This document shows, piece after piece, positions 8,206-29,741 of a DNA stretch of 32,218 bases (the first letter of the stretch is position 1; each line of letters begins with the position of its first letter). Source of the stretch: Parabacteroides goldsteinii (GTDB taxonomy: Bacteria > Bacteroidota > Bacteroidia > Bacteroidales > Tannerellaceae). The notes below the pieces were generated by a model. The model saw nothing but the letters and a program-made list of their open reading frames with translations. It had not been told where the DNA came from and did not search any database. The position numbers and the translations under genes are program-made. The stretch covers positions 1 through 32,218 of the forward strand of contig NZ_JADNBB010000050.1 in NCBI RefSeq assembly GCF_015550595.1. The letters run 5' to 3'.

Positions 8206-8420
8206 AATTCACTTTGTTTAGCAGTTATGTGTAAAAAGAAAGACGGCTACACATTTCCCGTCGCTAAACAAAGTGATTATCATCTCCGAAGAGCAAAAAA
8301 TTCACTGGAAATGGCAGCCGCCAATATCATATAATATGGGCATAAAAAAAGCCCAACAATAAAATTGCGAGCGTTATCCGTCGCTCTTCGGTTTATGACT
8401 AAGTCATCTTTGTTTAGCAT
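8206..8420 (-). ncRNA. Structured leader RNA, copy 1 (terminator-hairpin with 5'-end complement)
   Basis: Reading the minus strand: segment 1 (8418-8383) is GCTAAACAAAG, a small hairpin, then CCGAAGAGC. Next is a GGGC/GCCC hairpin (8354-8338) with a T-rich loop, then a hairpin pairing GGCGGCT (8322-8316) with AGCCGTC (8248-8242), extended by CATTTCC/GGAAATG. T-rich sequence (TTTCTTTTT, 8241-8233) follows, so the hairpin looks like a terminator. Its loop contains segment 2 (8294-8263), GCTCTTCGG then CTTTGTTTAGC, complementary to both ends of segment 1 (9 and 11 bases). Segment 3 (8222-8210), GCTAAACAAAGTG, lies 4 bases before the ATG and can also pair with segment 2 over 13 bases. The layout suggests alternative pairings that control both termination and translation start. 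Confidence 0.6.
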
Positions 8421-8422
8421 TA

Positions 8423-8453
8423 CAAATATCGGGATAATATTTGTAATAGCAAA
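8423..8453 (-). promoter_or_regulatory. Promoter of structured leader copy 1
   Basis: The minus strand reads TTTG (8453-8450), 19 bases, then GATATTTG (8430-8423). This matches the Bacteroidales promoter TTTG-N19-TAnnTTTG except for the first base of the -7 box. Four bases separate the -7 box from leader segment 1, so transcription should begin at or just inside segment 1. Confidence 0.65.
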
Positions 8454-8493
8454 GAATATAAGCCATATTATCAAGTAAATTCAATTTATTTCT

Positions 8494-8605
8494 AAAAAAA
8501 AGAAAGACGGCTACACATTCCCCGTCGCGAAACAAGTGAGATGACCTCCGAAGAGTTAAAATCCACTGGAAATGGCAGCCGTCAATATCATTCAATTTGG
8601 GTATA
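8494..8605 (-). repeat. Partial second copy of the structured leader
   Basis: About 105 bases here closely resemble 8233-8340. The terminator-type hairpin is complete: GACGGCT (8583-8577) pairs with AGCCGTC (8512-8506), followed on the minus strand by TTTCTTTTTTTT. The loop keeps CTCTTCGGAGGTCATCT and TTGTTTCGC. Copy 1 has GGCGGCT where this copy has GACGGCT, so an A-U pair becomes G-U and the stem survives. No segment 1 and no promoter are visible upstream and no ORF follows directly, so this is probably a truncated duplicate. Confidence 0.65.
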
Positions 8606-8636
8606 AATTAAAGCCCCGAACCATAAGGAACGGGGC
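8604..8636 (-). terminator. Hairpin after hicB
   Basis: GCCCCG (8613-8618) pairs with CGGGGC (8631-8636), with inner pairs around CCATAAGG, and the minus strand continues with TTTAATTT. It lies about 50 bases downstream of the hicB stop and can end the hicAB transcript. It also occupies the place of the GGGC hairpin in the partial leader copy. Confidence 0.55.
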
Positions 8637-8688
8637 ATGCATTAATATAGCTCGGAATAAGACCAGAGCTTCACGGTTGGTTTATTTT

Positions 8689-9096
8689 CTAAATAGATGC
8701 AGACTCTAATTCTGCGCCTATTTCCTTGACTGTTTTAAGAATCTTTTTGGTTGTCGACTCAGATGCGAAAGCTAATCCCGCTTTATACTGACGCATTTTG
8801 GATTCGTTAATTCCCGCTTTCTTTGCGAACTGGCTGACATTAATCCAATCAAAATAGTTGAAGAAGGAGGGAATATCATACTTAAATGAAACCTCTATAT
8901 GACTATCTTTTTCTGGTATGACTTCTCCTCTTTCTGCAATAATCTCTTTCGCTTCATCAATACTTTTCAAAAAGTCTTCTTTTGCTTCTGATACGGAATA
9001 CCCGTATCCACCAAAACAACACCCCAGCAATTCTGCATCAGAACTGATCTGATAGTAGTTGTTGTCATTTCTCTCAATGATAGCTATTATTCTCAT
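8689..9096 (-). CDS. hicB: HicB-type antitoxin with C-terminal helix-turn-helix (135 aa)
   Basis: The N-terminal half (MRIIAIIERNDNNYYQISSDAELLGCCFGGYGYSVSEAKEDFLKSIDEAKE) has the partial RNase H-like HicB fold, including the GYGYSVxEA turn before the helix. The C-terminal 45 residues (NVSQFAKKAGINESKMRQYKAGLAF) form a Cro/CI-type helix-turn-helix. It should bind and neutralise the HicA mRNA interferase and repress the operon by binding the palindromes at 9376-9427. It starts 64 bases after hicA in the usual toxin-first order. A TA pair inside a phage late region could act in prophage maintenance or in defence against other phages. Confidence 0.85.
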   Translation of the reverse strand: MRIIAIIERNDNNYYQISSDAELLGCCFGGYGYSVSEAKEDFLKSIDEAKEIIAERGEVIPEKDSHIEVSFKYDIPSFFNYFDWINVSQFAKKAGINESKMRQYKAGLAFASESTTKKILKTVKEIGAELESASI

Positions 9097-9160
9097 GATC
9101 TATAATTTTAAATAAAGCCTTTGACCTATGTCTGTACCAAAGGAAAAGCGGAGCGGGGAA

Positions 9161-9343
9161 TCAAATCCCCGCTTTGCTCTTGATGCTTTCCAGCGTCTTA
9201 GGCTTTAGATCTTCCGTTTTGTGCCGCGATACCGGGAAGGTCTTGCCTGTGACAGGACTAATCCATATATCATGGTTTGCACCTCTTCGGTAGATCGAGC
9301 AGCCGGACGCTTTGAGCAATCTTACCAACTCTGATACTTTCAT
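9161..9343 (-). CDS. hicA: HicA mRNA interferase toxin (60 aa)
   Basis: The protein is a full-length HicA of typical size. It carries the short N-terminal helix (KVSELVRLLKASGCSIYRRGANHDIW) with the catalytic His in GANHDIW, followed by the strand segment GKTFPVSRHKTEDLKPKTLESIKSKAG typical of the double-stranded RNA-binding-like HicA fold. The enzyme cleaves mRNA and halts translation unless bound by HicB, encoded next. The start at ATG 9343 is preceded by no strong Shine-Dalgarno. The promoter box and two palindromes lie 28-84 bases upstream. Confidence 0.92.
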   Translation of the reverse strand: MKVSELVRLLKASGCSIYRRGANHDIWISPVTGKTFPVSRHKTEDLKPKTLESIKSKAGI

Positions 9344-9370
9344 ATTTCAAAGAGCTTTATTAATGCAATA

Positions 9371-9427
9371 CAAAAGTAACATAATTGTTACTATTAAGCA
9401 AGATGTTCGGTAACTATTTTGTTACCG
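9371..9427 (-). promoter_or_regulatory. hicAB promoter with two palindromic operators
   Basis: The minus strand has TACTTTTG (9378-9371), a perfect -7 box. Two inverted repeats with the same core lie here: GTAAC-N6-GTTAC at 9376-9391 and GGTAAC-N6-GTTACC at 9409-9426. Their centres are 34 bp apart, about three helical turns, so bound dimers would face the same side of the DNA. The first overlaps the -7 box and the second lies just upstream of the -33 region. This is the expected layout for HicB autorepression. Confidence 0.65.
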
Positions 9428-9730
9428 TTGGGATTAATTAACGTTCTTGCCTGACAAATAGAATCGAATTTCCATCATTCATTTGATTATCCGTCCGAAC
9501 GATTATCCCGACCATCGATCCGTCCGGCATATTTGCACCGGTCGGGGGAGCCCGTCCAGACAGCCTTCGATAGGGTGGCGCGGCATCTCGAGGGGGGATA
9601 GTGCATCGCTTTCTGTAACTGGGGGCTTTAATCATTTTTGCGTGAACTTATTGCCTATTTGCATGATTGCAAATGAATTGAGGTCCAATAAATAAAGTAT
9701 TCGTATAGATTAATTGACTAGTATATGCAT
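9428..9730. other. Intergenic stretch with a GC-rich core
   Basis: No convincing gene is seen. Positions about 9495-9625 are clearly more GC-rich than the surroundings and are open on both strands for about 65-70 codons, but neither reading has protein-like composition throughout. A perfect palindrome ATTTGCA-TGAT-TGCAAAT sits at about 9656-9673. The interval separates hicAB from the independent 108-residue gene and may be a remnant of an earlier insertion. Confidence 0.4.
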
Positions 9731-9731
9731 A

Positions 9732-9760
9732 AAAAAACTGCTACATTCACATGCAACAGT
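9732..9760 (-). terminator. Intrinsic terminator of the 108-residue gene
   Basis: On the minus strand ACTGTTGC pairs imperfectly with GTAGCAGT around a short loop and is followed by TTTTTTT. It lies about 60 bases after the stop of the gene at 9818-10144 and, with the promoter at 10168-10175, makes that gene an independent unit. Confidence 0.65.
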
Positions 9761-9817
9761 TATATTGAAATCTATAAATTCAATTAGCTTGAAAACCTAT
9801 ATCTTATAATAAAGTAT

Positions 9818-10144
9818 TTAATCATACTTGATGGTCCCTTTACTGAAAGAACCAACAATAAAACGCCCTTTGATATTAGTTCCTTCAACAGAAAAATGTA
9901 ATGTTGAATTATGACATTCTTTTCCTTCAGCTGCATTAGTAAAGTTTATATACCACAGAATATTGGTCAAGGCATTTCTTTCTGTTTTTTGGATCTGTTG
10001 AACTATCCAAATATTTTCTTTTACAGTGCATGAACATTTTTCCCGGTCTACACTGATTCCACCTTTTTCAACTAAACTATTGATTGCTGCATACTTATTA
10101 AGTGCGGCATTCATATCAGTCTTTTTATTAACTAACATTTTCAT
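9818..10144 (-). CDS. Independently expressed unknown protein, moron-type (108 aa)
   Basis: I do not recognise the family. The N-terminal half is helical (DMNAALNKYAAINSLVEKGG), followed by a Cys-containing segment (DREKCSCTVKENIW), a helix with IVQQIQKTERNALTNILWYI, and a C-terminal beta region (STLHFSVEGTNIKGRFIVGSFSKG). There is no membrane segment. A perfect -7 box lies 24 bases upstream of the ATG and a terminator 58 bases downstream, so the gene is transcribed on its own between the large terminase and hicAB. This is the classical architecture of a moron expressed from the prophage. Its next gene downstream is a TA system, and it may serve a similar host-related purpose. Confidence 0.75.
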   Translation of the reverse strand: MKMLVNKKTDMNAALNKYAAINSLVEKGGISVDREKCSCTVKENIWIVQQIQKTERNALTNILWYINFTNAAEGKECHNSTLHFSVEGTNIKGRFIVGSFSKGTIKYD

Positions 10145-10167
10145 GATTGATTGGTTTTATTATATTA

Positions 10168-10175
10168 CAAATATA
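10168..10175 (-). promoter_or_regulatory. -7 promoter box of the 108-residue gene
   Basis: The minus strand reads TATATTTG, a perfect TAnnTTTG box. TTTC lies 20 bases upstream, close to the TTTG -33 element. The gene starts 24 bases downstream, leaving a leader of about 17 bases. Confidence 0.65.
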
Positions 10176-10214
10176 GCATAATTGTTTAAATAACAGAAAT
10201 ATAAAACTATATAT

Positions 10215-11945
10215 TTATCTGACAGTAATACCAGGAAAACGCAAAGATCCTTCCTGATAAAAGTTATTCATTCCGATAAAAAGATCATCGAAAGCATCGG
10301 TTCCGTCTGTTCGTAGTTCGGCTCGGTCTTCGTCTGAGTCGGCTTTCTTTTCACCGGATTTATTCTTACCAAAGCCATCGTATTTGTCGCTGGTTTCTGT
10401 GTTCTCAATAGCCGCTATCAAATATTCGTTGTTATCCCGGTTCAGATAAGGGAATAGGTTCGGTTTTCCCTTCTTGGTATTGTAACGATGTTTGAATGCG
10501 TCGTCCAACAGATAAAACTTACTCATCTGAAGCATTGCTTCACCCATGTCTATTGCATTTACACTCCATCCACGAATACGCAAACAAGCTATAACAGTCT
10601 CATAGAAACGTTCATTCTTATCGTTGTTGGCATAACGCTTTTGTTTTGCCGTTTGATTATAATAAAAGTTTACGCGGTTATTGTTTATACGGTGTGGTTC
10701 ATAATAATTGGCCCAATCATCGCAAAGTTCGCGTAGCTTCCGTTCATCCTTTACAAACATGGAACTTAATACCATCATACATTCAACACCGTTGATATTA
10801 CCCTTCTGCCCGGTAACAACCCAGTTTATATTTGCATTATAGTCAAAAGCTATGTTAAGGCTCTGTTTGTGGTCGATATCCAGATCGAGAAAACAGGAAT
10901 GTTCTTGTAAACGCTTAAAATCGTATGTTTCAAAGGTGCTGCGGATACGGTTTCGTTCTGTAGGTTTTATTGTGATACGGAAATCTTCCATCTTATCGGC
11001 ACTTTCTACTACATAGGTGTGCTTGGTACTGTCGAAAGCGCTGTAGAAACCATCTGCGGCCTTTCTGACACGTTTGTTAAGGATGGATATATCAAATATC
11101 CGCTTTGGCAAAATGCGTTCCATATCCTTGATATAATCCAGTCCGACTACAGCTAAGTTTTGAAGGGTATTAAATTCCCGGTACAAATAACAATCCCGGC
11201 GTAGTTCGTTCATAAGGGTAAACTCTTTATCCAACCATTTTTGGGGATAGCCTGCCTTTTCCATAAATAGGTAACGGTCGATACTTTCTTTCAGTTGTTG
11301 TTCTATTTCGACTGTTACCTGCGATTCAAGATCGATCACCCATTGCCCTTCGCGTGTCAGTGGCCGGTCAGTAGTTATCCATATTGATTTTTTCAATGGG
11401 CAATCTTCGAAATGACCGGGAGTACCGGATATAGCCGGCATCAGTTCCTGGTCTACTTTTTCCTTTTTGATGATGCGGGCCTCGTCTATCAAGCCGCCAT
11501 CGAGCGTCAGGGAGTTGGCAGAAAATTTAATGTCCTGGCTAAGAATATGGGTCACATGCCCATTATACCAGTGTATGCAGTGTTCCCAATTGTATGGACG
11601 TACAATCGGATCATCAAATTGAGCGGATTTGGGAGCCTTACAGCCCACAAAGAAATGTACACCATGCTTCATGCCGGTAATATCTTCGATGGCGGCTATC
11701 GTTCCCGGAATAGTTCTTGTAAGACCTTGTTTCAAGGTGGCACAATAAATAAAGCTTTTCCCTCGCGGCATATAGGATACTATACGGATCAGATAAGGAC
11801 CCTGCAAACCGTGGGTTTTTCCAAAGCGTCGCGAGCAAATACCTACAAATCGGCGGGGCATCAGATTAAATACTTCAAACTGACCCTCGTTCAGCCAGAA
11901 TATTTTTTCCCGTTCGGATATTATTTCTTTTTCAGCTTCAATCAT
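10215..11945 (-). CDS. terL: Large terminase subunit (576 aa)
   Basis: This is the DNA-packaging motor, an ATPase plus nuclease. The ATPase has a Walker A-like CSRRFGKT at residues 37-44 and a Walker B with catalytic acid in LDGGLIDEAR (Asp154-Glu155). Position 186-195 (KSIWITTDRP) is a candidate coupling motif. The C-terminal RNase H-like nuclease shows the expected acidic residues: Asp368 in NIAFDYNANINWVV and the final acidic cluster TDAFDDLFIG about 20 residues from the end. Length suits TerL. Its first codons overlap the upstream TerS-like gene by 8 bases, indicating coupled translation. It is the last gene of the block that begins after the terminator at 14.0 kb. No portal gene follows, unlike in most phages. 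Confidence 0.9.
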   Translation of the reverse strand: MIEAEKEIISEREKIFWLNEGQFEVFNLMPRRFVGICSRRFGKTHGLQGPYLIRIVSYMPRGKSFIYCATLKQGLTRTIPGTIAAIEDITGMKHGVHFFVGCKAPKSAQFDDPIVRPYNWEHCIHWYNGHVTHILSQDIKFSANSLTLDGGLIDEARIIKKEKVDQELMPAISGTPGHFEDCPLKKSIWITTDRPLTREGQWVIDLESQVTVEIEQQLKESIDRYLFMEKAGYPQKWLDKEFTLMNELRRDCYLYREFNTLQNLAVVGLDYIKDMERILPKRIFDISILNKRVRKAADGFYSAFDSTKHTYVVESADKMEDFRITIKPTERNRIRSTFETYDFKRLQEHSCFLDLDIDHKQSLNIAFDYNANINWVVTGQKGNINGVECMMVLSSMFVKDERKLRELCDDWANYYEPHRINNNRVNFYYNQTAKQKRYANNDKNERFYETVIACLRIRGWSVNAIDMGEAMLQMSKFYLLDDAFKHRYNTKKGKPNLFPYLNRDNNEYLIAAIENTETSDKYDGFGKNKSGEKKADSDEDRAELRTDGTDAFDDLFIGMNNFYQEGSLRFPGITVR

Positions 11946-12594
11946 CGGTAGAACTGTTTAAGGTGAATGCTTTATCTATGTCCATTTTAGACCGGCTGAA
12001 AGGATCTGTTATAATCGGCCTTTCTTCTTCGAAATCCACATCTTCAACTAAACGTCTACCATACCGCTTCTCTGCATCTTCCTTCATCTTTTTGATAAAA
12101 TCAGGATCTTCAAATTTGGCAGACAAATATTTTTCATCCATCTGCGGACGGGCTGATAATGGAGTCAGATTCTTATCAACAGGTTCCGGATCGTCTTTGT
12201 CCAGGCGGTTGATCGACTTGTATTCTTTTGCCAGCCGCGCATATGAAGCCAGGTCTCCTTTGGTTTCCGCGAGTGCCATCATTTTTTTTAATCCTTCCGA
12301 CAATACCCGGCGTTCAAACTCTTTGTTCAAAGAAGAGAAAGTTCCGACAGCAACCCGTAGGTCAGCAAGATCGTAATAAGCCTGGCGTTCGGCAACTTTG
12401 TATTTGGAACGAAGCCATTTTACATGCTCGGTGTCCGGATGCATCGGATTATTGAGAACTTCGCGGTTAAGATCACGAAGACGCAGCACACGGGGTATTT
12501 CGGAAGCCGAGAAATTTTCATTCATTTCTTCTTCATTGGAAAAGAAATGCATGCATAATCGTTCCTGAAAAGATAATCTGTTAGCTCCTGGCAT
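11938..12594 (-). CDS. Probable small terminase subunit (218 aa)
   Basis: The identification is from position and character: it lies directly upstream of and overlaps the large terminase by 8 bases. The N-terminal half includes a helical region with DTEHVKWLRSKYKVAERQAYYDLADLRVAVG, plausible as a helix-turn-helix (WLRSKYKVAERQAYYDL), followed by a long helical segment (residues 85-135) suited to oligomerisation. The C-terminal 80 residues are acidic and Pro-containing and probably flexible, ending in a tail that may contact TerL. Length fits TerS. There is no catalytic motif. It overlaps the preceding gene by 14 bases. Confidence 0.6.
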   Translation of the reverse strand: MPGANRLSFQERLCMHFFSNEEEMNENFSASEIPRVLRLRDLNREVLNNPMHPDTEHVKWLRSKYKVAERQAYYDLADLRVAVGTFSSLNKEFERRVLSEGLKKMMALAETKGDLASYARLAKEYKSINRLDKDDPEPVDKNLTPLSARPQMDEKYLSAKFEDPDFIKKMKEDAEKRYGRRLVEDVDFEEERPIITDPFSRSKMDIDKAFTLNSSTDD

Positions 12595-13105
12595 AATTTA
12601 TTTGTTTACGAAAGGTTCTATATATGGTTTGACGTATCATATCCTGCTCCTGAGGTGTGTTATGCATGGTAAACATTTCCAGCCTATGACTGGGATAATC
12701 CTGCATGAAAACACCGGATATCGTAATATTGCGCTGCCCGTTGCCAGCCTGCAAAAGGAAAAAGTTTACTTCTGCATCAATAATATGGATGTGAGGATAA
12801 CATATTTCTTTCTGCCGTCCATTATGAATGGATTCCCTACAAAATACGGTTACTTCTTTCAAATTTTCATTCCGTTGCAGCTCGGCAATCAAATCCAGCA
12901 TATCAGGCAATAAAGAATAACAGCACACGGTGATATCTGCTCCATAAACGAGTTTGCTCATGGCACGAAGCAAACGCCCCAGAGTAAAATCACCATTACC
13001 GAAAAATACCGGTGAACCGGGCTGTTCGGAGAGTGTTTGCAGAGCATTCTCAAAACAACCCAGGCATGGTTCCAAGAAAGGATAGGAGTCTGGCAGCTTA
13101 TTCAT
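12581..13105 (-). CDS. Unknown alpha/beta protein of the late operon (174 aa)
   Basis: The start is set at ATG 13105, which overlaps the stop of the preceding gene (ATGAATAA); an upstream start at 13153 would overlap by 56 bases. The sequence alternates hydrophobic strands and helices: SPVFFGNGDFTLGRLL, GADITVCCYSLLPDMLDLIAEL, LKEVTVFCRES, HIHIIDAEVNFFLLQ, NITISGVFMQ. This pattern is that of a Rossmann-like or phospholipase-D-like core, but no HKD motif is present. It sits between a 291-residue unknown and the TerS-like gene, with overlaps on both sides, so it is coexpressed with the packaging genes. A packaging or head-completion role is a guess. Confidence 0.7.
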   Translation of the reverse strand: MNKLPDSYPFLEPCLGCFENALQTLSEQPGSPVFFGNGDFTLGRLLRAMSKLVYGADITVCCYSLLPDMLDLIAELQRNENLKEVTVFCRESIHNGRQKEICYPHIHIIDAEVNFFLLQAGNGQRNITISGVFMQDYPSHRLEMFTMHNTPQEQDMIRQTIYRTFRKQINYARS

Positions 13106-13973: not shown

Positions 13974-13991
13974 AAAATATTTGTTTTAAAT

Positions 13992-14036
13992 AAAAGAAAA
14001 GGAGAAGCGCCGCGAATGGCTACGCTTTGCTTCTCC
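13992..14036 (-). terminator. Intrinsic terminator within the late operon
   Basis: GGAGAAGC (14001-14008) pairs with GCTTCTCC (14029-14036); the minus strand continues TTTTCTTTT. It lies between the 197-residue gene and the packaging block. No promoter box is obvious downstream, so it may act as a partial terminator that makes capsid-side transcripts more abundant than packaging transcripts. Confidence 0.7.
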
Positions 14037-14660: not shown

Positions 14661-15920
14661 TCAAGATTGTGATTTAAAGGTTGCTGATAAATTGATATTA
14701 CCCTTAACCAATATGCGGCGGGTAGCGTCAAGAGAATTGTCACTCCATTTTTCGAATACATAACCGTCATTCGGTTTTGCAACAAGAGTAACAATGTCAC
14801 CCAAAGAATACTTTTCTTTAGTAGGTGTAACTTCTACTGTGCCATTTGTCGGAGTAGAAACAGTAACAGTGTATTTTCCAGCACCATTATAATCTCCGGC
14901 ATAAGCAACAGGAGTAAGAACACCGCCGCTTGTCATGAAGAACTTGCGATGGAAGGAACGGATAGCTGTGCCGTATTCAGCACCGATATTATAGGTGATA
15001 ATCTGATCATCATCGTCGATCTGGCGGGCACGGATGAATGGTTTGTCAAACTGGGTATCATAACCAAGCTGGAAAATATCTCCTTTTGACAGAATCATAC
15101 GATCCCCGTATCCCATCATTTTGTTTACGTTCAGCACTACTTCATCTTCGTATCCCGGAATAACATAACGCCCGTAGTCATCGGCTGGCATTGTAAAGCG
15201 GAATTTATTGAAAGTTGCAGCCCGGATAGCACGTGCCGTTTCTTTGGTAACGTTCAGGATTGCACCACCTTCAATAGATGAATGACTCAAGAACTCGTCA
15301 ACGATATCATAAGCAGTAGTATCTTTTTCGTCTACCGGCATAGTGATAGCTGCTGAGAGTTTATACTGGTTACCTTCGGCTTCAGATATTTCGCCGGTGC
15401 CCTCTGCATCGCGCATGAGCTTTTCGTATCCGTCAAACAGATCGTATTTCGTGGTACCATCGTCGTTTCTGACTGCATGGAAGAGGGCATCTTTCAAATC
15501 TTCTCCCCAGGTTGCGCCATAGGAATAGAATATCTGAGGATCGGCAGGGTTTTTGCCTGATACCTCGTCACGTCCCAGATTTGTTCCTACTACATCTACC
15601 GGACGATAATTTTGGATATTATCCTTTTCGATACCGGCTGCACGATAGACCTTGAACTCGTTCTGTTTGAATTTTCCCAGTTCTTCGGTAGAAGCACTCA
15701 TGCCCTGTTTGTAAGGGCGCATAATACCACCACGGCGCAGGAAAGTATAATCCACATACTTATTCTGAATACCGGGCACTAACAATACCCCCATCTTGTT
15801 TAATGCATCAACGGCATACGAGAGGGGAGCGTACTTGATATCGCGATTGTATTTAATCGCTGTTTCGTTCAATTGATTGATTAGGGCCAATGACTGAACA
15901 CCTGTAATTTTATCTGGCAT
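14661..15920 (-). CDS. Major capsid protein with C-terminal InlB-type repeat domain (419 aa)
   Basis: Identified as the major capsid from size, position after the protease-scaffold gene and a fold-like pattern: an N-terminal arm, long strands and helices, and the RSFHRKFFMTSGG segment near residue 330. Residues 348-419 form a separate module: GKYTVTVSTPTNGTVEV, KEKYSLGDIVTLVAKPNDGYVFEKWSD and a final NINLSATF strand. That is the signature of bacterial InlB B-repeat-like domains. Such a domain at the capsid C-terminus would be displayed on the head surface, where Ig-like domains of other phages bind mucus or carbohydrate. The start has the late motif ATAACCCT 14 bases upstream of the ATG, overlapping the stop of the protease gene. 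Confidence 0.8.
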   Translation of the reverse strand: MPDKITGVQSLALINQLNETAIKYNRDIKYAPLSYAVDALNKMGVLLVPGIQNKYVDYTFLRRGGIMRPYKQGMSASTEELGKFKQNEFKVYRAAGIEKDNIQNYRPVDVVGTNLGRDEVSGKNPADPQIFYSYGATWGEDLKDALFHAVRNDDGTTKYDLFDGYEKLMRDAEGTGEISEAEGNQYKLSAAITMPVDEKDTTAYDIVDEFLSHSSIEGGAILNVTKETARAIRAATFNKFRFTMPADDYGRYVIPGYEDEVVLNVNKMMGYGDRMILSKGDIFQLGYDTQFDKPFIRARQIDDDDQIITYNIGAEYGTAIRSFHRKFFMTSGGVLTPVAYAGDYNGAGKYTVTVSTPTNGTVEVTPTKEKYSLGDIVTLVAKPNDGYVFEKWSDNSLDATRRILVKGNINLSATFKSQS

Positions 15921-19764: not shown

Positions 19765-20199
19765 TTATCTGCATTCGTTGATGAACTCCTTCAGGGGAAC
19801 GTCTAAATAATCTCTTTCGAAAAGCTCGTGGCAATAGGTTACTGCCGTCTTGATGCGTTCTACTTTATAGCAATCGAGTTGAGACACAAGCATACCGACT
19901 TCAGCCATATAGGCCGGGGTAGGTTTGTCGCAATCGATTTCGGCAAGTAGCATATCTATCTCACGGTTACTATGTCTCATATTTTGCAAAGAGGATAAGA
20001 CGTAAGAGGCGATGTGCAAAGCATGGGTTCCTTTTTGAGATATTTCCCGGAGCAGGTTTATCACCTTGTTTACGCCATCCTGGTCTTTGCAGAACATATC
20101 GGCGTATTGATTGATATCGGCAGGCATCGTTTGTTGGAGAACGATCATGATCCCTTTTGCTTCTTCAAGGTCGTTCCAATAGGGGGCAGACTTTTTCAT
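19765..20199 (-). CDS. Unknown helical protein (144 aa)
   Basis: No family recognised. The protein is almost wholly helical, with regular amphipathic segments (LEEAKGIMIVLQQTM, DGVNKVINLLREISQKGTHALHIASYVLSSLQNM, EIDMLLAEIDCD, AEVGMLVSQLDCYKVERIKTAVTYCHELF). No membrane segment is present. Its ATG overlaps the stop of the 82-residue gene upstream (ATGA), so the two are translated together from the leader at 20.5 kb. It closes the early block, ahead of the terminator. Confidence 0.75.
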   Translation of the reverse strand: MKKSAPYWNDLEEAKGIMIVLQQTMPADINQYADMFCKDQDGVNKVINLLREISQKGTHALHIASYVLSSLQNMRHSNREIDMLLAEIDCDKPTPAYMAEVGMLVSQLDCYKVERIKTAVTYCHELFERDYLDVPLKEFINECR

Positions 20200-20444
20200 A
20201 ATAGGCCTCCTTTCATTATTGCATCGTAAAGACCGGCCATAATAAAAGCGGATAGTTCTATCAAAAGAAGCTTAACATATTGCTTTGCCTCGGCTTCGGT
20301 TTCACAATGACAGATTTCACCTGGGATAAGGTTGAAGAGATTGGCAATAATTGCCCATAAATGAAGATTACCCGTTTCGTGGGTTGACGCTGTTTGTTGG
20401 GTACTGTTATTCACCGGCAAACAATTGTTTGTGAGTTTGAGCAT
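20196..20444 (-). CDS. Small protein behind structured leader copy 2 (82 aa)
   Basis: The start is ATG 20444; an upstream TTG would run into the leader hairpin. The N-terminus contains NNSTQQTASTHETGN, which matches NNSTRRATSTHETR in the gene behind leader copy 3 although the remainder of the two proteins is unrelated. The body is helical (HLWAIIANLFNLIPGEI, EAEAKQYVKLLLIELSAFIMAGLYDAIM) with a CHCE segment in the middle. The hydrophobic C-terminal helix could touch membrane but is more likely a packing helix. It is coupled by a 4-base overlap to the 144-residue gene downstream. Function unknown. Confidence 0.7.
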   Translation of the reverse strand: MLKLTNNCLPVNNSTQQTASTHETGNLHLWAIIANLFNLIPGEICHCETEAEAKQYVKLLLIELSAFIMAGLYDAIMKGGLL

Positions 20445-20651
20445 AACTAAACATTGTTTGTATTTGAGGACGGGAAAAAACAAAAAACGGTTTCGCCTGT
20501 CCCTCTGCTCTACACCTCACATGGCAGTTACGGCCATTAAGCCGTATCGAGGGGGTACGAAACCGTATATATTATAATACGAAACGTATAGACATAAAAA
20601 ATGCCGATACAAATATGTTCGGTGGTTTACCCGCCATGTGAAATATAGAGC
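20445..20651 (-). ncRNA. Structured leader RNA, copy 2
   Basis: On the minus strand, segment 1 (20651-20633) is GCTCTAT...TCACATGGC, beginning 4 bases after the promoter box. A GGCATTTTTTATGTC stretch follows, as in the other copies. A large hairpin pairs ACGGTTTCG (20566-20558) with CGAAACCGT (20495-20487) and runs into TTTTTTGTTTTTT, a terminator. Its loop contains a small ACGG/CCGT hairpin and segment 2 (20525-20507), which is complementary to segment 1 over 9 plus 6 bases. A clear third segment near the ATG is not seen; only CTCACA in the coding start could pair. The sequence of arms and loop differs from the other copies while the pairing is kept. Confidence 0.6.
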
Positions 20652-20655
20652 ACTG

Positions 20656-20686
20656 CAAATATGGGGAAAAATGTTGGATTTGCAAT
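20656..20686 (-). promoter_or_regulatory. Promoter of structured leader copy 2
   Basis: The minus strand has ATTG (20686-20683), 19 bases, then CATATTTG (20663-20656). This is the same deviation from TAnnTTTG and the same spacing as in the promoter of leader copy 1, and the same 4-base distance to segment 1. Confidence 0.55.
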
Positions 20687-23761: not shown

Positions 23762-23764
23762 GGG

Positions 23765-24046: not shown

Positions 24047-24399
24047 AAACATTGATATTTATTGAGTATTGCGAAAGAAAAAGCAATTACTGTCAACAGG
24101 CAGTCGAGACATGTGGCCCATGTACCCACGCGTTGAAAACGGGATATGGAAAGGGCAATTACAAAAACATATATAAACCACTGTGAACTGAACAATCCTA
24201 TAATCAGTATGATATATTCGGCATAATCGAGGTTTTCCACCCAATTAAGTACCGGGCTGTAATCAAGATACAGGTTCCGGTCTTGTTTGTTCATCCGGAA
24301 CAGTTTACGCCGTTCGGCATGCAAGGCGCGGCAGTTGAACATTTTTGCCAGTTCGTAAACGGCAAACAAAGCGGTCAGAAAATAAAAGATGTGTGACAT
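24043..24399 (-). CDS. Polytopic membrane protein (118 aa)
   Basis: Three or four hydrophobic helices are visible: residues 3-20 (HIFYFLTALFAVYELAKMF), 60-85 (AEYIILIIGLFSSQWFIYVFVIALSI) and 92-112 (GTWATCLDCLLTVIAFSFAIL). A basic cytoplasmic loop (HAERRKLFRMNKQDRN) follows the first helix, consistent with an inner-membrane topology. It lies 12 bases after the primase-helicase gene and overlaps the next membrane gene by 4 bases. Function unknown; a holin cannot be excluded but there is no endolysin nearby. Confidence 0.75.
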   Translation of the reverse strand: MSHIFYFLTALFAVYELAKMFNCRALHAERRKLFRMNKQDRNLYLDYSPVLNWVENLDYAEYIILIIGLFSSQWFIYVFVIALSISRFQRVGTWATCLDCLLTVIAFSFAILNKYQCL

Positions 24400-24411
24400 A
24401 ATATAAATTGT

Positions 24412-27400
24412 TTAGTTGTTAAAATGGTCTGTTCCGTCAATCTCATCGAGACTGTATTGTTTAGGTGTATTCACCGGTGGACGTGTGTCTCGTGGTGCGT
24501 AGGGTGACCGGTTGTCTGCCGGATCCTGGATCAGTTGAAGAGGTTCGACCGTCTTTTCAGCAAAATCGCGGATGGTAGCCTCAGTTATATCGCGGGTTTG
24601 GATATACCAGAAGAAATCATCTTTGCCATTACGGCTTTTCCTGTATTCTCCGCGGGTTTTCTCGCTTTCGCTGCGATACAGTTCCGGAGGGTTCAGCGTC
24701 CATCGTTTGAAATCGCAGAATTTTTGCAGCTTCTCGCGGAGGGTTGCAACTGTAATGCGATCCTGAAACGTACGGCTGTATATCTGCTTGAAATCTTCGA
24801 AGATGTCGTTGCGCCAGATAGCTACATTCAGTTTGTTTTGCATTTCGGCGGCTTCGTCGAAATAATCGTTCAGCCAATCGAATACATTCTGCGAAATACT
24901 GTTTATCAACATACCTTTCTCTACACGATCCATGACTGGCAAAACCATCTGGTTGACGTGCATATAAGTTTGGATACATTGGGCAAAGAAATAGTATAGT
25001 TTGTTCATTTCTTCCGGTGTATAATCGTCCACAATGTTCTTACCGAACTCAGTATTTGGTTTGCGTTCCGGTATTCCCTGGTTCGGGTCGGCCGGATGGT
25101 AATAGCTACTGAATGTACAGAACCAGGCGCGGCGACGTTTGGATTTGTCGATATCGGCCGGCTTATGGTTTGAGTTCAGTATGGTGATCGGACTCTCATG
25201 GAACGGGATCGTGATAGCGTCTCCAAAACGTTTACGGACGGTCATATCACCGGTGATCTGGTTGAATAACATGTTCAGTGGAAAACCTTTCTGTAAGTCA
25301 TCGAAATGAACGACATCGGTTTTACCGGGAACTACACCGAAGTATAACAGGTCACTGTCTTTTTTCGGGTCTACAAGCTGACCGTCGCGGTACCATACGT
25401 TACGTACCTGTCGTATAGGATAATAAAAAAGGGATTTACCAACGCCACCGTTGTGTTCGCCATTCTTATTGTTTTCATCTTCCACACACATCAACATATA
25501 GGCTTTATCCATCTCCTTATGACGGCGGCATGTATATCCCAATGCACATATTTTGCTGACAAAGTTAAGATCCGGTTCTTTTTGTTGGGAGGGTGTCAGT
25601 TCGATACCCAGTTCCTTTTCCCGCCAGAACACTTCCCCGGTGTTATAGATAAATTGGGCATAGCTGAAATCATTCCAGTTACGGCGCAAAATAAAGCGGT
25701 CTACGGCTGGAAAAGTCTTTTCGTTCGTACAGGTCAGATATTCCTCGCTGTATTCGGCATAGAAAAGAGGTTCTTTTTCCAGGTGGAAGTCTGCCTGAAT
25801 AATCTTGTCTTCGTATAAATTGAAGGGTAACGATTCAAGGGGAACCATATCCATTTCGTGTTCGGTAATACGCAGAGCTCCGTTCCGGAAGAAAAGATAT
25901 TCCTGATGCCGGGCATCATAAGTGAAATCCAACTTTACTTCAGATATGTTTTGCAGACTCTGTCCTTTCACCTGGTTACTCCGGTTAATAGCGTTCAACA
26001 ATTGTTTATCGAAATAGACCGGTGTGCGTTTGATAAAATCACGCAATATCTGATTGACAACGCCCGATATCTTTTTTTCTCCTATTTCTTCTACAATATT
26101 GTCTTTGATTTGAACGTATTTGAATTCTTCGTCGTTATAGGCATATTTGTGGATACCATAGGCCGACAGGAAGCGGAACAACTGTTCGTTGTCGATTTCT
26201 TTGCCGATCACCTTTATTTCTGAATTATCCTTATCTCCGGTTTCTTTGGTTTTATCCATCCAGAATTTAAGGGGTAGAGCGTTTTTGACGATATGGTCGA
26301 AGCGCTTGAACTTATCGAGATAGAAATAGTCTTGTCGCTTGTATCCGGTGCCTTCATCCGAATTCCATTTGATAAAATAGTCCTTGACATCCTTACAAGC
26401 TCCTTTTGTCTGATCGTACATTTCTTGCGGGAGCATGGCTAGTTTTATTTCCATGTACCGGATTGCCATCCGGTAGGCAAACTTTTTACCTGTATCATCC
26501 AAGTCATAAAGGACTGTTATGTTTTTAGCTATTTTGCGAAGCCGGTTTTCCTGCCACCAATCAAGTATATCTGTTTCACTGTTTAACCAGCAAACGTTGA
26601 AACCACCATTGAAGTAAGTATTGATTGCGTCGGAACCACCCGAAACGATCACTAGTTCTTTCAATTTCTGTTCTGACTCAATAGCCTCTCCCTTTTTTAC
26701 TCGGTTCAGGTAATTGGTCGTTTTGGTGTCTCCAAAAATAAAGTTTTGTTCTTTCACTCCGAAATAACTGAAACGATTACCTTTCTCGGCCTTGGGCTGG
26801 TATATTTTACCCCACTTGCTTCCGTCCGGACGCTGATAACACCAGTACATGATTGGAAATTCTTCCGTACTGCATACGCGCCAGGAAAAGTTATCACCTT
26901 CCTTGGCAGGACGTGTGAAACTTTTAAGGCTCCTGATCGGGAAAGCATTCTTTAATGCTTCGGAAGTGATCGTGTCCATTTCTTCGAAGGTTCCATCTTC
27001 TTTTTTGATGTTTCGGCGCATGTTGCCTAACAGGCGTAGTTCTTCTTCGGAAAAATCGTCTTTTTCCTCAAAGATATATTCGGTGACCGGATCGACCTTT
27101 TCAAGTACCGCCTTTAGTCCGTGTGACACTGATCCGAACATGGCTTCGAGTTCTGCCAGCGCCCGGTTGCGGTCAATGTTTTTCAGTCTCATGATAAATT
27201 GTAGTGCGCCGCCACGGGTTTCCAGTCCGCCATAGCATATCCAGCAACGTTTTGCCGGCCAGACGTAGAAACGGGTGTCTTCCTGAGTGAAAAAGGGACA
27301 TTTGGCCTGTTGTACTTTCCCTTTCTGCTGAAATTGGATGCCTTTGCAGAAGGTGCGTATAACGTCCATCAGGCGGTTGTCCGCTTTCTGAATTAATTCT

Positions 27401-27420
27401 TGTTCATTTAAGTATGCCAT
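24412..27420 (-). CDS. Primase-helicase: degenerate zinc finger, Toprim and SF3 helicase (1002 aa)
   Basis: Residues 35-95 are a CHC2-type zinc-finger region with Cys41, Cys59 and Cys62, but Phe-Phe replaces the usual His (CPFFTQ). Residues 100-250 match the C-terminal half of the neighbouring 247-residue primase (GDNFSWRV..FPIMYWCYQRPDG). Residues 255-345 form a Toprim domain with LYDLDDTGKKFA, while the usual acidic residue of the first motif is replaced (IVSGGSDAIN). Residues 620-780 form an SF3-type helicase: Walker A NGGVGKSLF at 657-665, Walker B VVHFDDL at 703-709, sensor ITILNSNH at 745-752 and basic DKSKRRR. The protein should initiate and unwind at the phage origin. It starts 11 bases after the short primase gene. 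Confidence 0.85.
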   Translation of the reverse strand: MAYLNEQELIQKADNRLMDVIRTFCKGIQFQQKGKVQQAKCPFFTQEDTRFYVWPAKRCWICYGGLETRGGALQFIMRLKNIDRNRALAELEAMFGSVSHGLKAVLEKVDPVTEYIFEEKDDFSEEELRLLGNMRRNIKKEDGTFEEMDTITSEALKNAFPIRSLKSFTRPAKEGDNFSWRVCSTEEFPIMYWCYQRPDGSKWGKIYQPKAEKGNRFSYFGVKEQNFIFGDTKTTNYLNRVKKGEAIESEQKLKELVIVSGGSDAINTYFNGGFNVCWLNSETDILDWWQENRLRKIAKNITVLYDLDDTGKKFAYRMAIRYMEIKLAMLPQEMYDQTKGACKDVKDYFIKWNSDEGTGYKRQDYFYLDKFKRFDHIVKNALPLKFWMDKTKETGDKDNSEIKVIGKEIDNEQLFRFLSAYGIHKYAYNDEEFKYVQIKDNIVEEIGEKKISGVVNQILRDFIKRTPVYFDKQLLNAINRSNQVKGQSLQNISEVKLDFTYDARHQEYLFFRNGALRITEHEMDMVPLESLPFNLYEDKIIQADFHLEKEPLFYAEYSEEYLTCTNEKTFPAVDRFILRRNWNDFSYAQFIYNTGEVFWREKELGIELTPSQQKEPDLNFVSKICALGYTCRRHKEMDKAYMLMCVEDENNKNGEHNGGVGKSLFYYPIRQVRNVWYRDGQLVDPKKDSDLLYFGVVPGKTDVVHFDDLQKGFPLNMLFNQITGDMTVRKRFGDAITIPFHESPITILNSNHKPADIDKSKRRRAWFCTFSSYYHPADPNQGIPERKPNTEFGKNIVDDYTPEEMNKLYYFFAQCIQTYMHVNQMVLPVMDRVEKGMLINSISQNVFDWLNDYFDEAAEMQNKLNVAIWRNDIFEDFKQIYSRTFQDRITVATLREKLQKFCDFKRWTLNPPELYRSESEKTRGEYRKSRNGKDDFFWYIQTRDITEATIRDFAEKTVEPLQLIQDPADNRSPYAPRDTRPPVNTPKQYSLDEIDGTDHFNN

Positions 27421-27431
27421 AATATAGTAAG

Positions 27432-28175
27432 CTAATTGTCTAATAGTCCTTTCAAGTCGATTTCATCAATCTCTCCATCGCGTAGCCGGTAAGCAAAGTC
27501 GCGTATCTTCTCGGTAAAAAAGGCTGCACCTGTACGGCGCGTACCGAAGTTGCGCAACTGGCGGTTTTTCACAGCTGCGGGTTGGAAGAGCGTTCCCCAT
27601 TCTGTTTTATCCGCATTCTTATAGCAAAACATCAGTATCGGGTACTGTGGTGCTTCCATGATTTTCCAGGAGAAGTCTTCTCCCTTACGGACCGGATTGG
27701 TTATGCTCCGAAGAGCAAATAATCCTAGTTTCATGGAGTAACGGTAGATTTCCATTTCATCCGTGACCGTTACGCCGCATAGTTCGAGATCCGATACGGA
27801 TAGTTCCCTGTATTCAAATTGCATGGAAGTTACGGGATTCACCTTGATAATTTGCGGACGTTTCGCGGTGTCCTGTTGTATTGGTATATTGATTATGCCG
27901 GCCACTTTCCGGATGGCTTCGATATAGGATAGGTTGTCTATTTTCATCGCGAACTGCACCGCGCCTCCCCCGGCCCCACACCCGAAGCACTTCCACATTT
28001 TTTTTGACGGAGACACATGGAAACTGGGTGTACGTTCGCCATGAAGCGGACAGCAAGTGACGTAGGATAGCCCTCGTCTTTCAAACTTACTTCCGGGACT
28101 GAGCTTTTGAATGACATTCAGCAGGTCATTATTGGCTGTCTCGATAATTCGGTCTATTGTTTCTTTTGGAATCAT
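27432..28175 (-). CDS. CHC2 zinc-finger primase, Toprim-less (247 aa)
   Basis: Start at ATG 28175 (MIPKETIDRIIETANNDLL); longer readings would run through the tRNA-like sequence upstream. The CHC2 zinc finger is intact: Cys41 or Cys42, His45 (CCPLHGERTPSF), Cys63 and Cys66 (WKCFGCGAGGGAVQF). Residues 130-235 (SVSDLELCG...GEDFSWKIMEAPQYPILMFCYKNADKTEWGTLF) match the paralogue downstream. The protein stops exactly where that paralogue enters its Toprim domain, so it cannot make primers alone in the DnaG manner. It may supply a functional zinc finger in trans to the larger protein, whose own finger lacks the His. It lies 11 bases upstream of that gene. Confidence 0.85.
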   Translation of the reverse strand: MIPKETIDRIIETANNDLLNVIQKLSPGSKFERRGLSYVTCCPLHGERTPSFHVSPSKKMWKCFGCGAGGGAVQFAMKIDNLSYIEAIRKVAGIINIPIQQDTAKRPQIIKVNPVTSMQFEYRELSVSDLELCGVTVTDEMEIYRYSMKLGLFALRSITNPVRKGEDFSWKIMEAPQYPILMFCYKNADKTEWGTLFQPAAVKNRQLRNFGTRRTGAAFFTEKIRDFAYRLRDGEIDEIDLKGLLDN

Positions 28176-28200
28176 ATGGATATAGGTTTTATTGTCTATG

Positions 28201-28274
28201 CGGCCCCGGAAGGATTCGAACCTTCCGCGAAGGATTGCCATTGAACGGCATTCGTGCCTCAATCATCCCAGGCC
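28201..28274 (-). tRNA. tRNA-like sequence, possible UCA anticodon
   Basis: A 74-base stretch on the minus strand has a perfect T-arm (GAAGG-TTCGAAT-CCTTC), an acceptor stem GGCCTGG with CGGGGCC (one G-G mismatch and one U-G pair) and a central hairpin TGCC-GTTCAAT-GGCA whose 7-base loop has U33 and A37 and reads UCA, which would decode UGA. The D-arm is poor (three A-T pairs, no A14) and position 8 is G, so it may be a degenerate or unusual tRNA. CCA is not encoded. It lies in the leader of the short primase gene. Confidence 0.4.
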
Positions 28275-28278
28275 ATTA

Positions 28279-28305
28279 GCGGGACGGCTTGTCTGTCCGT
28301 CCCGC
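28279..28305. terminator. Strong hairpin after the HU gene
   Basis: GCGGGACGG (28279-28287) and CCGTCCCGC (28297-28305) form a perfect 9-bp stem with a 9-base loop. No T run follows on either strand. It lies just downstream of the HU-like gene and directly upstream of the tRNA-like sequence, so it may end the HU transcript or act in RNA processing. Confidence 0.45.
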
Positions 28306-28336
28306 AGCTTACTAATCGGCTTACTAACTAGCTTAC

Positions 28337-28600
28337 CTACTTGTCGAGCTTGAACGAAGGTTTGAATTTGGCAACACGCTTTGCGGGAATGTCGATCATT
28401 TCGTCCTTATGGATATTACGGGCTTTGCGTGCTGCCCGTGTTTTGATAAGGAAAGAGCCGAAACCACGGCTGAATACTTCTTCTCCGCTTTGCAGGGTGT
28501 CAACGATTACGTCACGTTCAACGTTCAATACGTGTTCAACTGTTTTCTTGTCTACGCCGGAAATCTCGGCGATTCTGTTTGCTAAGTCTTGCTTTGTCAT
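28337..28600 (-). CDS. HU/IHF-family DNA-bending protein (87 aa)
   Basis: A full-length HU/IHF protein. The N-terminal helices (TKQDLANRIAEISGVDKKTVEHVLNVERDVIVDTLQSG) are followed by the saddle (EEVFSRGFGSFLIKTRAARKARN) and the arm segment IHKDEMIDIPAKRVAKFKPS, matching the PRxGRNPxTGExxxIPA region in a variant form. It bends DNA as a dimer. In phages such proteins assist integrase-mediated recombination, replication initiation or packaging. It lies between the antirepressor gene and the primases, so a role in assembling the integrase or origin complex is reasonable. Confidence 0.92.
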   Translation of the reverse strand: MTKQDLANRIAEISGVDKKTVEHVLNVERDVIVDTLQSGEEVFSRGFGSFLIKTRAARKARNIHKDEMIDIPAKRVAKFKPSFKLDK

Positions 28601-28662
28601 GATTGTTTAATATTAATTGGTGAATAAAAAATAGTTATTATATAGCTATCAATATTTCAACT

Positions 28663-29193
28663 TCAAAAATCAAATTTCAATTGCCTTCTTTCAGTATCAT
28701 AATCATCCATAGTGAGTGAGCGTAGCTTTTTCAATTTGGCTTCTGCTTCTGTTAATGTTCCTTTGGCTAATTTAAAGTTTTGCTTTGCATTCTCTAATAT
28801 TTCTAATTGTTTATCAATTTCTAATTGTTTTTGTTCTACAAATTGAGACTTTGCAGCAAAATACATGTACAATGCATGATAGCATTCTTTTTGATACATT
28901 ATTACCGCTTCTCTAGCCTTTTCGGCAACATTCATAGGATTAATAGTACAGAGCCAACCTAAAACAAATTCAAAAGGGAGACAATACATTTCTCTAGCTT
29001 TTCCATCCCCGGCAACTGAGGTGGTCAGCACCCCAGTTGAAGCAAGCAAAGGATGTTCTTGAATTTTGTTTCGTTGTACTTTTGGGTCAATACTTAATGC
29101 TTCGCAAATTGGTTTAATTGGTACTAATTTATCTACATCATTAGATACAAGGATGTCAACATTGTTGACTTTGGTTACAAGATTTGTTTCCAT
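28663..29193 (-). CDS. Phage antirepressor-like protein with P22_AR_N domain (176 aa)
   Basis: Residues 12-115 match the P22 antirepressor N-terminal domain: LVPIKPICEALSIDPKVQRNKIQEHPLL, VAGDGKAREMYCLPFEFVLGWLCTINP and the helix EKAREAVIMYQKECYHALYMYF. The C-terminal 60 residues form a coiled coil (QKQLEIDKQLEILENAKQNFKLAKGTLTEAEAKLKKL). Proteins of this family bind and inactivate repressors or act as regulators of the lytic switch. No CI-type repressor is seen in the window, so its partner is unknown. It lies 62 bases upstream of the HU gene. Confidence 0.8.
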   Translation of the reverse strand: METNLVTKVNNVDILVSNDVDKLVPIKPICEALSIDPKVQRNKIQEHPLLASTGVLTTSVAGDGKAREMYCLPFEFVLGWLCTINPMNVAEKAREAVIMYQKECYHALYMYFAAKSQFVEQKQLEIDKQLEILENAKQNFKLAKGTLTEAEAKLKKLRSLTMDDYDTERRQLKFDF

Positions 29194-29234
29194 AATAAAT
29201 AATTAATTATTAAATGTTTATGTATATCATCCTG

Positions 29235-29549
29235 TTAACAGGATGCTTTTATCCGACATTCGTATTCAAAGGCTTTATATAGATTTTGAAGGGAGAAGGC
29301 TCCGGCATGGAGACAACGTTTGCCGGCACGGGCTCGGGCAATAAACATCCGTCCGGTGTCTTTGATTTTAAGATCGCGGATTCCGGGATATTTATCCTGA
29401 AAGAAAAGAATAAGAGAAAGCCTTTCGGCTTGTGTTTGGGATGGTTTTCTACTTCGTTGGGTAGATCTGGATACACGCGTTTCGTGCGTAGACGTTGCTC
29501 TACGGGTACTATTATTCCCTGCATTGCAAATTTCAAAATCCTTGGTCAT
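29235..29549 (-). CDS. Basic protein behind structured leader copy 3 (104 aa)
   Basis: The ATG at 29549 is chosen; a longer reading from 29786 would run through the leader hairpin. The N-terminus carries NNSTRRATSTHETR, shared with the 82-residue protein behind leader copy 2. It is followed by a Ser/Arg/Gln-rich stretch and a folded C-terminal part (LSLILFFQDKYPGIRDLKIKDTGRMFIARARAGKRCLHAG and NLYKAFEYEC). The protein is strongly basic and may bind nucleic acid. Its first codons (ATGACCAAGGA) contain a 9-base sequence complementary to the leader loop, so translation start can be sequestered. It lies 41 bases upstream of the antirepressor gene. Function unknown. Confidence 0.65.
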   Translation of the reverse strand: MTKDFEICNAGNNSTRRATSTHETRVSRSTQRSRKPSQTQAERLSLILFFQDKYPGIRDLKIKDTGRMFIARARAGKRCLHAGAFSLQNLYKAFEYECRIKASC

Positions 29550-29741
29550 TTTGTTGTTTGAAATTTGAATAACAAAAAAGGCTGTTTGCCTCTCACTTCC
29601 GACCAAGGAAACCGCTACAATCGAAATTGTATGCAGCCAACGGAGAGTACAAACAGCCCTATATCTTTTAAGATACAAGTCTAAGTATAGACATAAAAAT
29701 AGCCCACACAAAAACGATAAATAAGCAAGTTTCCTTGGTCG
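29550..29741 (-). ncRNA. Structured leader RNA, copy 3
   Basis: On the minus strand, segment 1 (29741-29729) is CGACCAAGGAAAC. A GGGCTATTTTTATGTC stretch follows, as in the other copies. A hairpin pairs GGCTGTTTG (29658-29650) with CAAACAGCC (29588-29580) and continues into a T run (29579-29573), a terminator. Its loop holds segment 2 (29612-29600), GTTTCCTTGGTCG, a perfect 13-base complement of segment 1. The start of the following ORF (29547-29539, GACCAAGGA) is a third segment that can pair with segment 2 over 9 bases. The sequence of these segments is unrelated to the other copies although the arrangement is the same. Confidence 0.65.

Follow-up and report, generated by a model that had tools for sequence, protein, structure and literature searches.

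Leaders with hypervariable guides in a phage-like contig of Parabacteroides goldsteinii: a candidate family of antisense-RNA attenuators in Bacteroidota

The window analysed here, the entire contig C45 of Parabacteroides goldsteinii (32218 bases of a 6.5 Mb genome in 85 contigs), encodes phage-type genes (an integrase, an S49 protease, an antirepressor and a protein with a primase-type zinc finger) and carries on its minus strand three RNA leaders built on one common plan. From 5' to 3' each leader contains a promoter, segment 1, a T-rich element, a hairpin (S) with a T run, and segment 3 at the start codon of a small open reading frame (ORF). Segment 2, hereafter the guide, sits inside hairpin S in all three leaders and is complementary both to segment 1, probably the RNA 5' end, and to segment 3, at the start of the next gene. 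More than 100 related loci were found, all named hosts being Bacteroidota; their scaffold is conserved and their guide hypervariable. Judged from sequence comparison, the leaders are likely to form a family of antisense-RNA attenuators in mobile elements of Bacteroidota, working like CI of P4 and c4 of P1/P7 on a different scaffold, and these switches probably keep the neighbouring gene off self-specifically.

The arrangement described in the initial annotation, recurring three times before small ORFs, was found in all three copies. Two features can be added to it: copy 2 also has a segment 3, bipartite and lying on the start codon, and a fourth, partial copy (1b) carries only the guide. The parts of the leaders are as follows.

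8423..8453, minus strand: copy 1 promoter, -33 TTTG at 8453-8450 and -7 box GATATTTG at 8430-8423, segment 1 lying 4 nucleotides (nt) further; read from the sequence with the consensus taken as general knowledge
8383..8418, minus strand: copy 1 segment 1 (a1 + b1), probable RNA 5' end and antiterminator strand; from sequence, fold and shuffles
8369..8386, minus strand: copy 1 hairpin H1 (GAGCG...CGCTC), overlapping the 3' end of segment 1; read from the sequence
8335..8353, minus strand: copy 1 T-rich element (hairpin H2); from pattern and covariance model
8242..8322, minus strand: copy 1 terminator hairpin S, arms 8322-8307 and 8259-8242, then a T-rich run
8263..8294, minus strand: copy 1 guide (segment 2), within hairpin S; from the predicted fold
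8203..8222, minus strand: copy 1 segment 3 (a2), reaching from just upstream of the ATG at 8205 into it; from sequence, fold and shuffles
8507..8616, minus strand: copy 1b, guide-only partial copy (L062); covariance-model match, E 1.2e-16
20656..20663, minus strand: copy 2 -7 box CATATTTG; read from the sequence
20633..20652, minus strand: copy 2 segment 1; from sequence, fold and shuffles
20621..20635, minus strand: copy 2 hairpin H1, overlapping the 3' GGC of segment 1; read from the sequence
20587..20605, minus strand: copy 2 T-rich element (hairpin H2); from pattern and covariance model
20487..20566, minus strand: copy 2 terminator hairpin S, arms 20566-20549 and 20505-20487, then a T run
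20506..20525, minus strand: copy 2 guide (segment 2), within hairpin S; from the predicted fold
20430..20443, minus strand: copy 2 segment 3, bipartite TGCTC-AAA-CTCAC, on the start codon (ATG at 20444) and codons 2-5; from relatives
29753..29760, minus strand: copy 3 -7 box TAAGTTTG, 12 nt upstream of segment 1
29725..29740, minus strand: copy 3 segment 1; from sequence, fold and shuffles
29686..29704, minus strand: copy 3 T-rich element (H2); from pattern
29580..29659, minus strand: copy 3 terminator hairpin S, arms 29659-29643 and 29596-29580, then TTTTTT
29601..29613, minus strand: copy 3 guide (segment 2), within hairpin S; from the predicted fold
29534..29549, minus strand: copy 3 segment 3, beginning at the ATG (29549); from sequence, fold and shuffles

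The significance of the pairing in the window was assessed with 2000 dinucleotide shuffles of the target stretch; these stretches of about 50-70 nt were set around the segments, so the counts are conditional on the finding. The pairing of segment 1 with the guide was equalled in 0 of 2000 shuffles in each of copies 1, 2 and 3, in agreement with the proposed complementarity between segment 1 and the loop of a terminator-like hairpin. The lengths first given for it were 9+11, 9+6 and 13 bp; the 13 bp of copy 3 stand, and in the predicted folds copies 1 and 2 form longer pairings, of 30 and 20 pairs. Pairing of the guide with segment 3, originally claimed for copies 1 and 3, was reached in a single shuffle of 2000 in each of these copies. 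In copy 2 it was reached in 876 of 2000; this segment 3 is therefore not significant alone and rests on the relatives. A conserved GGC-T-rich-ATG element had also been described, and its three window matches exceed the 0.12 expected by chance; since the pattern was written from these same copies, the count only shows that the window holds no further copy at that stringency.

Absence of covariation between segment 1 and the guide in homologues had been set beforehand as refuting the switch, and strong covariation was found. Two sets of loci were used. Most members of the first, of 59 loci (1 near-duplicate of 60 was removed, and six 'type 3' rows have hand-set boundaries), were picked without using segment 1 or 3; the exceptions are the window copies, which had been singled out because they pair, L001 and L002, retrieved by a whole-leader query, and L012-L018, found via the cargo protein, whose first codons hold segment 3 in type 2. 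The second set, of 68 loci, came from a scaffold-only pattern that likewise made no use of segment 1 or 3: 90 of 99 matches were used (9 were short of flank), 22 were merged as near-duplicates or as having the same guide, and 2 of the 68 are spacers of clustered regularly interspaced short palindromic repeats (CRISPR).

In swapped-pair tests, from which near-duplicates had been removed and in which the tree was not taken into account, the own segment 1 ranked first among the 59 targets for 41 of the 59 guides and the own segment 3 for 26, and the observed pairing sum was reached by 0 of 10000 re-pairings for either segment. Among the 68 loci the own segment 1 was the best target in 56, with the two spacers scored as misses; the own segment 3 was best in 7 and within the best three in 31. 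The summed scores were 2610.5 for segment 1 and 1485.5 for segment 3, against maxima of 1388 and 1216.5 in 10000 re-pairings. An exact 9-mer complement to the guide was present in the own segment 1 region of 55 of the 68 loci compared with 3.0% of swapped pairs, and in the own segment 3 region of 39 compared with 2.4%. For segment 3 the signal, though clear, is less strong, since the match covers only about 9-10 nt, and often just one half of the guide pairs with segment 3.

The changes themselves were compensatory. In 27 of the 68 loci, chosen because their pairing has no gaps, the 11 variable positions showed 111 double-sided changes and 0 broken pairs, and 5 non-pairs fell at three nearly constant positions. 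The scaffold hairpin H3 (alignment A6, 48 of 68 loci) gave 24 double-sided changes and none broken, a count covering two pairs that the search pattern had left free. Within a stretch of about 440 bp that includes the module, loci L031 and L037 differ at 9 positions; 6 of these make up one concerted dinucleotide swap in segments 1, 2 and 3, and the two loci diverge outside this stretch. In type 2, twelve scaffolds of which have a mean column identity of 88%, the guide varies over about 6 nt and one dinucleotide, and both segment 1 and ORF codons 2-5 follow: residue 2 of the cargo is Leu (CTC) with the guide end GAGCA and Ser (TCC) with GGACA in 13 of 13 rows, L031 and L032 being identical and L048 being the least perfect match. 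In L049 and L014 segment 1 was missed by the simple pattern, yet pairing is seen in both. These comparisons support the initial suggestion that complementarity kept without sequence conservation marks a functional RNA switch. That ordinary terminators with chance complementarity explain the leaders is scarcely credible: each copy does have an ordinary-looking terminator hairpin, but covariation, swapped pairs and shuffles all contradict this explanation.

Bacteroidetes-type promoters have the consensus -33 TTTG and -7 TAnnTTTG. Boxes of this kind place segment 1 at or near the start of the RNA, as the initial annotation had it; the distance from the -7 box to segment 1 is 3-4 nt in most relatives, as in copies 1 and 2, and 12 nt in copy 3, in which a clear -33 box is absent. 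Promoters and folds were counted in the 58 of the 68 loci with a clear segment 1. In 48 of these 58, TTTG, the core of the -7 box, ends 3-4 nt before segment 1, indicating that segment 1 is probably the RNA 5' end.

Predicted folds made pairing of segment 1 with the guide and formation of terminator S mutually exclusive, in line with the switch proposed at the outset. In the minimum-energy fold from segment 1 to the end of S, segment 1 and the guide were paired and S was unformed in all three window copies; with segment 1 removed, S formed in all three, and copies 2 and 3 still formed it when the RNA without segment 1 was extended past the ATG. A T run lies behind S in 55 of the 58 loci, and S was predicted to form in 53 of them when segment 1 was blocked. 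With a foreign segment 1, S formed in 272 of 290 trials and the foreign segment paired with the guide in 13; pairing with the own segment 1, seen in 58 of 58, is a result of the selection. A terminator hairpin, a T run and an upstream strand that excludes the terminator, as in a transcription attenuator, are all present in the predicted folds.

Since the predicted folds are exclusive, any occupant of segment 1 should cause termination, and we infer that the occupant would naturally be the guide carried by a further copy of this RNA. Transcription would begin at segment 1. In a cell without free guide, segment 1 would capture the emerging guide, S would be blocked and the polymerase would read through; segment 3 would then be left uncovered by the guide and the cargo would be made. 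A terminated RNA with its guide free would bind in trans to segment 1 of the next nascent transcript, so that S folds and transcription stops, and the guide could also cover segment 3 at the start codon of the read-through mRNA. Only elements that share a guide would be silenced by it; this would amount to self-immunity, and copies with different guides could coexist. Trans action, termination, the sign of regulation and immunity are in this way what the sequences suggest.

A switch confined to cis (riboswitch-like, or an attenuator controlled by processing), in which segment 1 or segment 3 competes for the guide within one molecule, would account for the exclusive states, which folding of one molecule already gives. 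Such a switch is nevertheless unlikely. It has no evident need for dozens of guides on one conserved scaffold, and this is the main argument for trans action, the hypervariable guides pointing to recognition between RNA copies. It is also at odds with the lack of any Rfam family match and with guide-only copies without segment 1 pairing above background, namely L056, L063 and, in the own-versus-swapped test, L062 (copy 1b). Such pairing was likewise not found in L081. These guide-only copies have possibly decayed or possibly act on other elements; no start site matching the guide of copy 1b was found in viral contigs with a narrow exact pattern that included ATGAAA.

Several points weigh against attenuation in trans. 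The own segment 1 was not the best target in 18 of the 59 and 12 of the 68 loci, nor the own segment 3 in 33 and 61, respectively. The extended RNA of copy 1 without segment 1 folds the guide onto segment 3 (18 pairs) in preference to S. The folding energies were computed without pseudoknots, in which segment 1 pairing and S could coexist, and they ignore proteins. In the predicted S-only RNA about half of the guide is unpaired (median 0.51; at least 0.5 in 38 of 68 loci), the fractions for the window copies being 0.35, 0.38 and 0.50. Most loci are not followed by an antirepressor or KilA-type domain, and an immunity role is therefore not evident for every copy. Finally, IsrK of Gifsy-1 activates and does not repress, according to the available text of PMC4825925.

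This last system shows that a related arrangement can activate, and we therefore kept as a rival the idea that the short terminated RNA turns the cargo on by freeing the start of the read-through mRNA. In its favour, Gifsy-1 has the same two-isoform logic and a neighbouring antirepressor: from one promoter come a short terminated RNA and a read-through mRNA, and behind them lie a small ORF and the antirepressor gene anrP (PMC4825925, in the part available). The guide of the leaders, on the other hand, is directly complementary to the start region in segment 3, which predicts occlusion, and activation appears quite improbable.

If repression in trans holds, a further possibility, still doubtful, is a protein-free, self-propagating RNA memory, in which a guide-blocked transcript would terminate with its own guide free and so replace each used guide. 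The silent state might then be copied via RNA alone, with its specificity drawn from about 11 changeable positions, and the many versions across the mobile elements of a bacterial phylum might amount to an RNA-coded self/non-self identity.

The leader family is not a member of the known C4, c4-a1b1 or isrK families of Rfam. At the gathering score Rfam 15 gave 0 matches to any RNA family in the window, and the C4 (RF01695), c4-a1b1 (RF03163) and isrK (RF01394) models gave no window match at gathering or at E<=5, no match in 13 related loci at gathering and none in 6 at E<=10. The positive controls were detected (P4 C4, 8.8e-13; P4 isrK, 1.5e-10; P1 C4, 1.4e-11; P1 c4-a1b1, 2.9e-10).

As far as sequence can tell, the family nevertheless works like c4/CI. 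The P1 record is annotated in the order a1, b1 (putative), C4, a2, b2, icd, ant, and the leaders share with P1/P7 c4 an upstream target, an antisense RNA, a target at the start of a small ORF and, in window copy 3, an antirepressor; the pairing is bipartite in both and the RNA lies within the leader of its own target. An upstream site complementary to the guide, corresponding to a1 and b1, is present. A downstream site at the ORF start, corresponding to a2 and b2, is found at the level of the family and in window copies 1 and 3, copy 2 not showing it alone. A small ORF followed by an antirepressor occurs in copy 3 and a minority of relatives, and copies 1 and 2 have cargo without a family match. 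Unlike c4, the leaders have another scaffold, carry the guide inside the terminator hairpin and the upstream target at the RNA 5' end, can include codons 2-5 in the downstream target, occur as several different copies per element with varied cargo, and are found in Bacteroidota, whereas c4 is tabulated for Proteobacteria and phages in the available part of PMC2864571.

The P4 CI antisense RNA is complementary to sites up- and downstream of itself (seqA and seqC) and causes premature termination (PMC4825925, in the part available). The guide is likewise complementary to sites on both sides, but P4 matches RF01695 and RF01394 and the leader loci do not, and an exclusive fold of seqA or terminator, predicted for the leaders, does not figure in the available P4 account of PMC4825925. 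With Gifsy-1 IsrK the leaders share the logic of terminated short RNA and read-through mRNA, with small ORF and antirepressor following; they differ from it in lacking an RF01394 match, and IsrK activates translation. A palindromic RNA candidate from Bacteroidetes phages, HMP_4078, is named in PMC8040213. The family was not described among the best-matching titles and abstract starts in the literature, which is weak evidence as most subscription papers are outside that scope.

Relatives were obtained in several ways. When phage records were searched by DNA similarity, copy 1 had two relatives whereas copies 2 and 3 had none, and locus searches in viral contigs with the three cargo proteins gave none; the copy 3 ORF was present in the window's own genome only (1 of 123 genomes). 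Further relatives came from pattern scans of viral contigs. Among 393 genomes from the order to which the window belongs, two covariance models, each reaching from the T-rich element through to the end of S, found matches in 10 and 11; the second also matched at two more places in the window's genome outside C45 and C3. Some genomes are multi-copy, with five places in G474:C2 for both models combined. With the scaffold-only pattern, 56 stretches were picked up from species genomes and another 41 from viral contigs; hosts include Bacteroides, Parabacteroides, Alistipes, Barnesiella, Tannerella, Flavobacterium and Terrimonas, and one record is labelled 'uncultured bacterium'. The guide of L015, from another genome of the same genus, is identical to that of copy 2. 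At least 2 of the 56 genome stretches are CRISPR spacers (L092:1249-1277 and L095:2651-2679, in metagenome-assembled genomes of Paraprevotella and Bacteroides), indicating that some hosts have treated the element as foreign DNA.

The T-rich element was considered as an internal promoter for a guide-only RNA and set aside, no conserved -7 box being seen after it by eye. It can form a hairpin with a T-rich loop and a stem of at least 4 in 53 of the 58 loci (no shuffled control), and on both grounds was treated as structure; it may still be an internal promoter or a processing site. A leader peptide from its ATG was rejected by eye, as the frame is not kept and some loci have GTG.

The cargo genes in the window are as follows.

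7933..8205, minus strand: copy 1 cargo, 90-amino-acid protein without Pfam or PHROG match
20196..20444, minus strand: copy 2 cargo, 82-amino-acid protein without Pfam or PHROG match
29235..29549, minus strand: copy 3 first ORF, 104 amino acids, in place of P1 icd; whole ORF without Pfam match, and no PHROG match for a query with the last residues cut
28663..29193, minus strand: P22_AR_N antirepressor (Ant-like), in place of P1 ant; PF10547 1.2e-27, phrog_524 5.8e-31

Copy 3 is thus followed by a small ORF and then by the antirepressor; it lay outside the set used to scan downstream ORFs. In that set ORFs were called mechanically (ATG, at least 55 codons), and 96 of 98 first, 83 of 84 second and 69 of 70 third ORFs were scanned, the four omitted being two very long ORFs and two that came from CRISPR arrays. 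The first ORFs were mostly small and without family match; they included 8 SymE toxins, 4 Rha, 1 HigB toxin, 1 AntA and 1 ANT, where the AntA and ANT matches probably belong to a single protein. The second ORFs gave 4 ANT, 4 KilA-N and 1 Rha, and the third single matches to Bro-N, ANT and Rha. As many as 5 of the 96 first ORFs were assigned to anti-repressor families by PHROGs. One unmatched cargo protein has 135 homologues, the 120 listed being named only as hypothetical. SymR is an antisense RNA encoded on the opposite strand, whereas the guide lies upstream on the same strand as the cargo; SymE-like proteins in 8 of 96 first ORFs suggest that antisense RNA may control a toxin. By eye, SymE-like toxins stand behind the leader in L090, L105, L111, L112, L116, L127, L137 and L138, several of them from Flavobacterium.

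The same scan bears on an element acting as DNA, either inverted repeats for promoter inversion or the guide RNA of a recombinase or nuclease. Segments 1 and 2 are inverted repeats and segments 1 and 3 direct repeats, as it would have them, but no recombinase or nuclease family recurs in the scanned downstream ORFs (HNH and VRR-NUC occur once each), no inverted form was noticed, though the search patterns could miss one, and the terminator T runs and the promoter position fit an RNA. An action as DNA is thus very improbable.

Copies 2 and 3 have a common ORF-start motif, NNST...STHET (window about 20380-20430 and 29490-29530), also present in relatives. It is conserved as DNA too (AATAGTACCC ... 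CACGAAAC in copy 3, where it may fold into a small hairpin). The downstream proteins to which it is fused differ, that of L048 resembling Rha by eye, and the motif may be one more part of the regulatory element. A pattern for the ORF-start motif gave 18 stretches, 11 of which were unrelated by eye and were dropped. Elsewhere in the window, the ORFs at 8689-9096 and 9161-9343, just upstream of copy 1b, have by eye the look of a HicB-HicA toxin-antitoxin pair. A 419-amino-acid protein at 14661-15920 has a C-terminal InlB-type B-repeat domain (Flg_new_2, 3.5e-12); from its position we guess that it is a major capsid protein with a surface domain.

The switches lie in phages and mobile DNA of gut Bacteroides and relatives, beside a gene that is sometimes a phage 'wake-up' protein or a toxin, and in type-2 relatives the cargo amino acids at positions 2-5 follow the specificity of the RNA. 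If the proposed mechanism is true, RNA-based phage self-immunity of the c4/CI kind would exist on an unrelated scaffold in Bacteroidota, a dominant gut phylum. It would tie antirepressors and SymE-like toxins to one programmable regulator, predict which prophages exclude each other, and make available a large natural collection of RNA switches whose specificity can be read.

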